From the NCBI RefSeq assembly GCF_028736115.1, contig NZ_CP117877.1, positions 1,674,001 through 1,738,000 of the forward strand: a DNA stretch of 64,000 nucleotides. Direction: 5' to 3'. The notes beneath the pieces were generated by a model that worked only from the letters and a program-made list of their open reading frames with translations, was not told the origin of the DNA and searched no databases. The stretch is from Mucilaginibacter sp. KACC 22063. Its GTDB lineage: Bacteria; Bacteroidota; Bacteroidia; Sphingobacteriales; Sphingobacteriaceae. Position 1 is the first letter of the stretch, and each line of letters begins with the position of its first letter. The position numbers and the translations under genes were made by a program. This document shows positions 38,464-40,075 of the stretch, in pieces.

Positions 38464-38580
38464 ACTTTTTAACACAATTTTATTGCTTAAGCCATATACG
38501 CTTTAATTGCAGTTGTAAAATATATTCTTTCTTTTTGGTGATAATTGTTATTCATCAGGTACATCGTAATAAATGCAGAT

Positions 38581-39117
38581 ATGAAACAGCAGCCAGATCT
38601 ATCAACCATAGCTCAACGCGAATCATTTTTTATTGCTTTGTACCAGATGGTTTTTCCCGCTGTAGCAAAGTACATCAGTAAAAGGGGCGGCAGCCTTGAA
38701 GATGCTAACGACATTTTTCAGGATGGTATTATTGCCTATTATGAAAAGCTTGTATCCGGTTTGAATATCGAAAATGAGCAAGCCTATATTATGGGAGCCT
38801 GCAAAAACCTCTGGATAAAGAAACTGAACGCAGCAGGTAATTTGTCTTTAGATAGCGTAGATGAAATACTGATTGCCGAATCAGCCTATACGGAACCGGC
38901 AACTGACAGGTTGATGTATTACCTGCAAACCACAGGGCAAAAATGCATGAACCTTTTAAAGGCATTTTACTACGATAAAATTTCGTTGAGGCAAATAGCA
39001 GAAGTATTTGGTTATGCAGGCGAACGCTCAGCGACGGTACAAAAATACAAGTGCCTTGAAAAAGTAAGAGACACCGTTAAACAACAAGCATTGCAATATG
39101 AGGACTTTATTGATTGA
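38581..39117 (+). CDS. Sigma-70 family (ECF-like) RNA polymerase sigma factor
   Basis: 178 residues. Region 2 is visible as FFIALYQMVFPAVAKYISKRGGSLEDANDIFQDGIIAYYE. Region 4 is divergent, with CMNLLKAFYYDKISLRQIAEVFGYAGERSATVQKYKCLEKVR ending in the HTH. The ATG at 38581 is preferred over one 36 bases upstream because the longer N terminus is a hydrophobic string unlike sigma factors. It overlaps the next small gene by 20 bases and heads a three-gene operon ending with a ClpP-like protease. Divergent from the thioesterase. Confidence 0.88.
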   Translation: MKQQPDLSTIAQRESFFIALYQMVFPAVAKYISKRGGSLEDANDIFQDGIIAYYEKLVSGLNIENEQAYIMGACKNLWIKKLNAAGNLSLDSVDEILIAESAYTEPATDRLMYYLQTTGQKCMNLLKAFYYDKISLRQIAEVFGYAGERSATVQKYKCLEKVRDTVKQQALQYEDFID

Positions 39118-39373
39118 AGTGAAGGACATTGAGCAGTACTTGTTTATAACCGGAACTGCCGAAGACCGATTGCTATTTGATGCCAAACAAATTATTAATC
39201 CTGAATTGAAAGGTAAAGTTGCCGATCAGCAAAAGGTTTATGAATTGGTAAACAATTATGGGCGTAAACAGCTTAAGGCTGAACTTCAAACTGTGTTTCA
39301 AAACCTGGTGTCAACACCTGAACATCGTTCCTTCGCACAGCGGATCAGAAGCATCTTCGGGCCAAAAAACTAA
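39098..39373 (+). CDS. Small soluble protein, candidate anti-sigma factor
   Basis: 91 residues, no membrane segment, no zinc-binding His/Cys cluster. The start DIEQYLFITGTAEDRLLFDA resembles the first helix region of anti-sigma factors (x-I-E-x-Y-L-x-G...-E-x-x-x-x-F-E). The rest is helical and basic at the end (HRSFAQRIRSIF). It overlaps the sigma gene by 20 bases and is followed 15 bp later by the ClpP-like gene. Position suggests it holds the sigma factor and may be a substrate of the protease. This is inference; the family itself has no assigned function known to me. Confidence 0.65.
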   Translation: MRTLLIEVKDIEQYLFITGTAEDRLLFDAKQIINPELKGKVADQQKVYELVNNYGRKQLKAELQTVFQNLVSTPEHRSFAQRIRSIFGPKN

Positions 39374-39388
39374 TCAAAATTTAAGGGA

Positions 39389-40075
39389 ATGAATAAACAT
39401 GAATTTCGCAGCTATGCTGTGAAGCACCTCCGTATTGCCGGTACTTTCGCAGACGATTATATTAAGGCGACCTCGGAAATGGCTGCCCCGCTTGCCATGA
39501 CGCCCTATATCACCGAAGAGCGCCAGTTGAATGTTGCACAAATGGATGTATTTTCTAGGTTAATGATGGACCGCATTATTTTTATGGGCACAGCAGTTGA
39601 CGATAACGTGGCCAACATCATTCAGGCACAACTACTCTTTTTGCAGTCTGCCGATAGTAAGAAGGATATACAGATGTATGTAAACTCACCCGGCGGCTCT
39701 GTTTATGCAGGCTTGGGGATATATGATACCATGCAGTTTGTTACGCCTGATGTGGCTACCATTTGTACGGGTGTGGCATTGTCTTTCGGGGCGGTGTTGC
39801 TTTGCGCAGGGGCTAAGGGAAAGCGTGCAGCATTACCACATTCACGCATAATGATGCACCAGCCACATGGCGGCGCACAGGGGCAGGCTTCGGATATGGA
39901 AATTGCCATACGCGAATACCTTAAACTAAAACGCGAACTATACGAAATATTTGAAAGGCACACAGGTCAAGACTACCAGCATATCAACGACCTTGCTGAC
40001 CGCGACTACTGGATGACAGCCACAGAAGCGCGCGAATTTGGTATGATTGATGAAGTTTTAAGCAGGGGAAACTAA
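39389..40075 (+). CDS. ClpP-like protease with altered catalytic triad, in a sigma-factor operon
   Basis: 228 residues of the ClpP S14 family. The nucleophile Ser132 sits in CTGVALSFGAVLL and the base His157 in RIMMHQPHGG; NSPGGSVYAG is also typical. The third triad residue is not in place. In canonical ClpP an Asp lies four residues before the conserved R-D-x-F/W motif's Asp (I-x-x-D-x-x-R-D). Here that position is Leu202 (HINDLADRDYW), with an Asp one residue earlier (Asp201). The N terminus is about 25 residues longer than usual mature ClpP and may be processed. No clpX or tig is adjacent, unlike the housekeeping locus, so it is probably a second, specialised copy working with the sigma/small-protein pair. 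Confidence 0.88.
   Translation: MNKHEFRSYAVKHLRIAGTFADDYIKATSEMAAPLAMTPYITEERQLNVAQMDVFSRLMMDRIIFMGTAVDDNVANIIQAQLLFLQSADSKKDIQMYVNSPGGSVYAGLGIYDTMQFVTPDVATICTGVALSFGAVLLCAGAKGKRAALPHSRIMMHQPHGGAQGQASDMEIAIREYLKLKRELYEIFERHTGQDYQHINDLADRDYWMTATEAREFGMIDEVLSRGN

Follow-up and report, generated by a model that had tools for sequence, protein, structure and literature searches.

The window analysed here is a stretch of 64,000 nucleotides from Mucilaginibacter sp. KACC 22063, whose genome (G000 in our numbering; L numbers denote loci) consists of a single contig of 4.81 Mb. It contains an operon in which the genes of an ECF-type sigma factor, a small soluble protein and a ClpP paralogue follow each other on the plus strand. 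The coordinates of the trio given in an initial annotation, the 20-nt overlap of the first two genes and the gap of 15 bp between the open reading frames of the small protein and ClpP were borne out. The features, in window positions, are:

38537..38564, + strand: predicted promoter GGTGATA-N15-GTACAT, a likely target of the sigma factor encoded in the operon
38581..39117, + strand: gene of the ECF-type sigma factor, 178 aa, with sigma2 and sigma4 regions
39098..39117, + strand: overlap of the sigma and small protein genes, 20 nt in two frames, with precisely this length in 104 of 136 other genomes
39098..39373, + strand: gene of the small soluble protein, 91 aa, a probable anti-sigma factor (by hhalign and gene position)
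39389..40075, + strand: gene of the ClpP paralogue, 228 aa, triad intact (Pfam CLP_protease, 250.3 bits)
39782..39784, + strand: codon of the catalytic Ser132 of the operon ClpP
39857..39859, + strand: codon of the catalytic His157 of the operon ClpP
40004..40006, + strand: codon of the catalytic Asp206 of the operon ClpP (initially assigned to Asp201/Leu202)

The ATG at 38581 was preferred as start of the sigma factor gene, because an alternative TTG start (38545-38580), which would extend the open reading frame to 190 aa, would fall within the predicted promoter. As described before, neither clpX nor tig lies beside the operon ClpP; no match for either was found in the 3.5-kb locus (L002). 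Searches revealed no terminator, and seven sigma-70-like sites compared with 5.8 in shuffled sequences.

The first gene product has the architecture of an ECF sigma factor, with sigma2 and sigma4 regions and no other sigma region. The match to TIGR02937 spans residues 19-163 and scores 36.1 (E 4.6e-9) against a curated cut-off of 42.9, and Pfam Sigma70_r2 scores 17.2 against 24. As these curated limits are not reached, the name ECF-type refers here to the fold, and the protein is assigned to neither model. Using the predicted structure (pLDDT 70.8, pTM 0.43), the best Foldseek match was SigL from M. tuberculosis (6dv9_F, E 7e-4, TM-score 0.35), followed by SigH-type complexes, and 6dv9_F was also the only PDB match of the sigma profile at E <=0.01 (E 0.0059). 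Only some 10 residues follow the last long helix of the model (148-168), and there is no C-terminal extension.

According to the initial annotation the ClpP had a displaced catalytic Asp, with Leu202 at the canonical position and Asp201 one residue earlier. This was a counting error. Residues 1-192 of the E. coli ClpP chain align with residues 36-227 of the operon ClpP over equal lengths and, with the E. coli triad taken to be S97/H122/D171, the constant offset of 35 places the triad on S132/H157/D206 with canonical spacing. D206, the Asp of the sequence ADRD, is invariant in the alignment of 40 operon ClpPs and 62 other ClpPs; column 202 varies among the latter (A 38, D 21, S 2, C 1). The SHD triad and the pair P101-G102 are present in all 151 aligned rows of operon ClpPs, which include second copies of genomes and the window twice. 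All three catalytic residues are thus intact and conserved, against the earlier suggestion of an altered or non-proteolytic enzyme, and the combination of a displaced Asp with a non-proteolytic ring was rejected on the alignment to E. coli ClpP and the conservation of the triad. The exchange A131L beside the catalytic Ser, present in 19 of the 40 operon ClpPs and in none of the 62 others, and the apparently greater diversity of the operon ClpPs (mean pairwise identity 0.718, n=40, vs 0.868 for housekeeping ClpPs, n=36, the operon set spanning more genera) would fit a pseudo-protease or a subunit with a regulatory role in the ring, but with the triad and P101-G102 invariant this reading is extremely improbable.

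The operon ClpP exceeds the gathering cut-off of Pfam CLP_protease (250.3 bits vs 20.2) and the cut-off of the broader subfamily NF001368 (283.3 vs 249). It scores below the cut-offs of the housekeeping equivalogs NF011091 (348.4 vs 361) and TIGR00493 (260.5 vs 308.6), and was therefore filed as a ClpP paralogue. That it might be the only ClpP of the genome does not hold, since a second full-length copy is located at G000:C1:3263739-3264263, adjoining clpX and tig. In the alignment of the two proteins 160 of 228 residues are identical. Both agree at 11 positions which we take to be the docking pocket of ClpP, so that sharing of one ATPase is likely. Judged from these comparisons, the operon ClpP is probably catalytically competent and probably works with the housekeeping ATPase; the odds that ClpX is this partner appear even.

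Two further observations were made in passing. A weak ClpP-family match (94 bits) lies at G000:C1:3953026-3953430 (L003) within a 439-aa open frame, and partial ClpP matches resembling it occur also in other genomes of the genus. At the housekeeping locus an open reading frame of 121 aa (L001:2300-2665, minus strand) is located between tig and clpP; it presumably resembles the four-helix-bundle proteins that inserts in 23S rRNA often encode.

To analyze conservation, profile searches were performed in 395 genomes of the phylum, 60 of family f29, 195 of family f25, 121 of genus g30 and 251 of the family of the window; these samples overlap. A small protein was defined as soluble if it was shorter than 150 aa and without a strong hydrophobic 19-mer, and ClpP was scored as absent if the 1.6 kb further downstream contained no match in the same orientation at an HMM E value of 0.01. 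The listed soluble-type matches and the same-genus set comprised 146 loci from 136 genomes; second genome copies were dropped (L191, L200, L252, L253, L254, L257, L258, L263, L268, L274). L117 and L131, which are copies of L033 and L010, were left out of trees and promoter counts. Both of these same-genus loci encode the very small protein of the named record that they duplicate, which places the window's genome in Mucilaginibacter or its GTDB genus.

The trio noticed in the window recurs in related bacteria: among the matches listed, an ECF-type sigma factor is encoded upstream of the soluble small protein in 136/136 genomes and a ClpP downstream in 124/136. The small protein was detected in 29 of 36 same-genus genomes, with the sigma factor in all 29 and an adjoining ClpP in 25. 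The seven genomes in which it was not detected have one full-length ClpP each, and G005 contains in addition a ClpP fragment with a stop. This contrast within the genus gives a Fisher value of 4e-5 if kinship is ignored. Among the 80 loci from named genomes nearest to the operon ClpP, 16 carry sigma factor, small protein and ClpP, all with an overlap of exactly 20 nt between the first two genes; they belong to Pedobacter, Mucilaginibacter, a further Sphingobacteriaceae genome and bacterium A37T11, and at one of them (L008) the ClpP gene lies 1.1 kb further on. A clpX or tig match was found at 60 of the other 64 loci. The operon is real and conserved, and the neighbourhood of the three genes is far beyond chance. 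Twelve of the 136 sigma/small protein pairs are without an adjoining ClpP, eight of them in one clade (support 100); the pair therefore needs no dedicated ClpP.

The origin of the operon ClpPs was analyzed using quick trees, the wider of which has long branches that meet and includes 51 hand-picked operon ClpPs. In this tree operon ClpPs occupy at least three places. One set is located near the housekeeping ClpP of Sphingobacteriaceae, others lie among the ClpPs of family f29 itself (a 12-row set with support 99 and a 15-row set with 94), and a distant set of type B comprises 11 rows (support 99). Separate from all these, the ClpP of L225 shares a long branch with ClpP-like tandem copies from family f25 (support 100). 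The Sphingobacteriaceae operon ClpPs form one group at a support of only 75 in a smaller quick tree and are not one clade in the wider tree (five changes of label A, mostly at weak forks). In the sigma tree the trio family is placed on one side of a branch and the membrane-type sigmas on the other (support 95; 22 of the 33 membrane-type rows were used), and the sigmas of L175, L190 and L225, whose ClpPs belong to other lineages, group with the window-type sigmas in a 28-row set (support 89). From the scattered positions of the operon ClpPs it follows that ClpP probably joined the sigma/small protein pair more than once. The simplest reading would be several independent replacements or additions of ClpP behind one and the same pair; alternatively, the housekeeping copy may have generated the pattern through gene conversion. 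The apparently repeated recruitment in the quick ClpP tree speaks for the dedicated ClpP partner that had been proposed initially.

These data also bear on the possibility that the ClpP gene merely hitchhikes and is functionally unrelated to the sigma pair. Neighbouring genes can stay together through shared expression alone. However, ClpP adjoins 124 of 136 pairs, several ClpP lineages are found at the same place and a shared motif lies upstream, and we consider a hitchhiker highly improbable. The operon ClpPs of divergent lineages keep the triad (L175, L179, L190, L222-L230), with the sequence HPTGGG...GYTEDV in those of L175 and L179. At the family f25 loci L334, L336 and L337 a second, divergent ClpP-like gene is located near the other full-length ClpP.

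Searches of Pfam, NCBIfam, PHROGs and PADLOC gave no match for the 91-aa small protein. An hhalign comparison revealed homology to an N-domain shared by long proteins, most of them membrane proteins, that are encoded behind related sigmas (probability 99.1, E 6.8e-19, 77 columns); the target consisted of the N-terminal 95 residues from 33 such relatives, and the reversed control reached a probability of 0.1. The likeness as such is expected, because the relatives were found by the profile of the small protein; their position behind ECF-type sigmas was no part of the selection. A sigma factor lies upstream at 33 of the 35 loci with long or membrane relatives and an adjoining ClpP at none, the count of 35 including L186 and L321, which we regard as chance profile matches and which have no sigma factor upstream. 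The contrast between soluble and membrane forms corresponds to one phylogenetic split in the sigma tree. After the shared domain, the protein of L184 carries Trypsin_2 and those of L185 and L187 carry TPR-like parts. A related protein is encoded outside the window in the same genome (L324, G000:C1:1793000-1796500): 366 aa long, it lies behind another ECF-type sigma factor and combines the N-domain known from the small protein with a hydrophobic segment and, by eye, a trypsin-like part, as in a putative membrane anti-sigma factor fused to a protease.

The structural model of the small protein (pLDDT 79.4, pTM 0.53) consists of helices 2-15, 21-33, 35-72 and 74-87. Four PDB fold matches were obtained at E <=10, all of them RslA chains in complex with a SigL domain, and even the best one is weak and falls short of significance (Foldseek E 1.2, Z 5.8). 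For the fold of a class I anti-sigma factor (ASDI), a bundle of three helices with a fourth, these matches are suggestive at most. The HxxxCxxC zinc motif is present in none of the 136 small proteins. Two other assignments were rejected: weak matches to Bystin were scattered over five of 43 members (E 0.0026 for the best), and a 'putative anti-sigmaE protein' matched 1 of 27 (E 0.042). The initial proposal that the small protein holds the sigma factor stood in so far as the protein has the look of a soluble anti-sigma factor, with a sigma gene upstream in 136/136 genomes, the N-domain homology and the overlap in 104/136. On these grounds the protein very probably has anti-sigma activity.

Upstream of the sigma genes of the family the sequence GGTGATA was found in 141 of 152 regions, the window being included twice, and in none of the 33 membrane-type relatives; the best 7-mer in one shuffle reached 21 of 152. 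It is located 44-49 nt before the sigma start in 101 cases, and an RCACWT-like block follows 15 nt past it in 131 aligned sites. Two family f29 sites shown (L180, L192) keep GGTGATA and are without the CACWT part, and 11 of the 152 regions have no GGTGATA. Within the window, positions 38537-38564 are the only motif match (0.22 expected); this site does not fit the strict pattern. The promoter pattern gave 13 matches in the window's genome compared with 4 for the reversed control. Eleven of them lie inside called open reading frames (one, L358, close to the beginning of a frame that looks efflux-adaptor-like by eye), and the other two are the operon (L361) and an intergenic site before an AraC-like open reading frame (L364, by eye). 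With the strict pattern, 140 matches in 82 of 100 genus genomes were obtained versus 13 for the reversed control (summed by hand), 40 of the 140 at known operons (hand count). Examination of 20 of the other 100 matches revealed 14 inside open reading frames, three before a SnoaL-like gene, one each before a TolC-like gene and an alcohol-dehydrogenase-like gene, and one at a further operon (L415).

The SnoaL-like gene encodes a SnoaL_2 protein (PF12680) of about 113-121 aa; it was found in other genomes (L403, L404, L405, L419-L434) and not in the window's own genome. Sixteen strong homologues were analyzed: nine have the motif upstream, three lie in the operon (L420, L422, L433) and four show neither. 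The motif precedes the matched part by 34-92 nt in the nine genes, three of which (in G1034, G011 and G942) are those that led to the discovery of the gene. Five of the nine genomes are without an operon ClpP, three are unclassed, and in G010 the small protein was not found. Among classed genomes, the SnoaL-like gene is present in 7 of 8 ClpP-less and in 2 of 41 ClpP-bearing ones. The motif before the SnoaL-like gene and the alternation of SnoaL-like gene and ClpP indicate that the motif is the promoter of the sigma factor and that ClpP or the SnoaL-like protein is its product. That the sigma factor recognizes its own promoter appears very likely from the sequences, and ClpP is likely to be a regulated output.

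ClpP could also be nothing else than this output: another cytosolic signal on the small protein would free the sigma factor, and ClpP would be the most useful gene to induce, a SnoaL-like protein elsewhere. The alternation just described, the SnoaL-like gene in the operon or behind the same motif, and the existence of sigma/small protein pairs without ClpP fit such a role. By itself, however, it leaves the recruitment of several ClpP lineages to the same place unexplained, and the ClpP-less genomes belong partly to one clade (8 of 12, support 100). We regard an output-only ClpP as a serious but rather unlikely alternative.

Taken together, the sequences reveal an operon, an intact catalytic triad, several ClpP lineages with one sigma clade, a shared promoter-like motif and the N-domain homology of the small protein. 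Our preferred reading, with a probability of about 0.5, is a self-activating switch of an ECF sigma factor and a soluble anti-sigma factor, with a dedicated, catalytically competent ClpP as product. Its core of sigma factor, soluble inhibitor, own promoter and competent ClpP has good backing in the sequences, inhibition itself being a prediction. The sigma factor would transcribe its own operon from GGTGATA-N15-RCACWT, and the co-translated small protein would bind it in the cytosol. A cytosolic signal would loosen or expose the small protein, which would then be destroyed by ClpP together with borrowed housekeeping ClpX. The freed sigma factor would lead to more sigma factor, inhibitor and ClpP, so that the loop would be closed and ClpP would supply the proteolytic capacity. 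Degradation of the small protein by ClpP would agree with published anti-sigma factors that are removed by ClpP or ClpXP and with the contrast between membrane-type and ClpP-linked inhibitors, but this contrast goes back to a single phylogenetic event; we see slightly less than an even chance for it.

The small protein may instead be an adaptor that hands the sigma factor to ClpP. Overload of ClpP would then allow the sigma factor to survive and to raise ClpP, in the manner of a protease-load homeostat. Both the putative adaptor and ClpP are made by the operon; among the motif matches examined, 20 of them away from the listed operons, no intergenic target besides the operon and the SnoaL-like gene turned up in more than one genome; and AntA is described in parts of PMC8999054 as a case of direct ClpXP control of an ECF sigma factor. 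The homology to proteins with mostly a membrane segment in anti-sigma position favours inhibition, however, and makes an adaptor improbable.

The preferred switch may have a wider evolutionary background: in a class of cytosolic ECF switches of Bacteroidota, membrane anchoring of the inhibitor would have been lost and a dedicated ClpP would have taken the place of a membrane-side protease route. This idea is tentative and in our view doubtful; if true, the sigma factor would both report on and set the proteolytic capacity of its own cell. A recognised class I anti-sigma factor lies beside only 6% of the ECF sigmas of Bacteroidetes, and other inhibitor classes are suspected, according to parts of PMC7406223. 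The small-protein family is a concrete, unnamed candidate for such a class with soluble and membrane forms, and the promoter motif makes the regulon of the sigma factor testable. The family also offers a repeated evolutionary link between a sigma/inhibitor pair and ClpP, and the trio points to a putative link between gene control and protein breakdown.

In the collection searched, no literature combining ECF sigma factor, Bacteroidetes, ClpP and anti-sigma was found. A search of titles and abstract starts, mostly of non-subscription literature, gave no title on the operon of the window; 10.1093/nar/gkaa1229, which may note the context, was outside its scope. The operon resembles the class I soluble anti-sigma systems SigL/RslA of M. 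tuberculosis and RpoE/ChrR of R. sphaeroides in that an ECF-type sigma gene is followed by a co-translated gene in inhibitor position; as expected for class I anti-sigma (ASDI) genes, the small protein gene adjoins its sigma gene in 136/136 genomes. Four helices are predicted, and RslA with SigL provides the best, weak structure matches. In contrast to the class I systems, there is no zinc motif and no family match, and ClpP is the third gene. Accessory ClpP paralogues are common in bacteria, and the ClpP of the window likewise is a second ClpP gene of its genome with the triad kept; it differs in that it is tied to a sigma/anti-sigma operon with its motif and was apparently recruited repeatedly.

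Parts of PMC5733041 report that ClpP is needed for removal of the anti-sigma factor FpvR20, and RseA, RsiW and FpvR are, according to parts of PMC8103513 and PMC5733041, finished off by ClpXP or ClpP. In these systems, as proposed here, ClpP removes the cytosolic anti-sigma part; in contrast to our proposal, these inhibitors sit in the membrane and undergo prior cleavage by other proteases, and the ClpP is the general one. For the ECF115 group, with its Bacillus model member, processing by Clp proteases encoded nearby is predicted (parts of PMC8999054). Clp protease genes near an ECF sigma gene are found at the window operon as well, and as such arrangements were already predicted for ECF115, the trio is not a new category. 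The ECF115 sigmas differ, as far as described in the same parts of PMC8999054, by a C-terminal extension of about 70 residues, whereas the sigma factor of the window is without this extension and the probable inhibitor is encoded by a separate gene.
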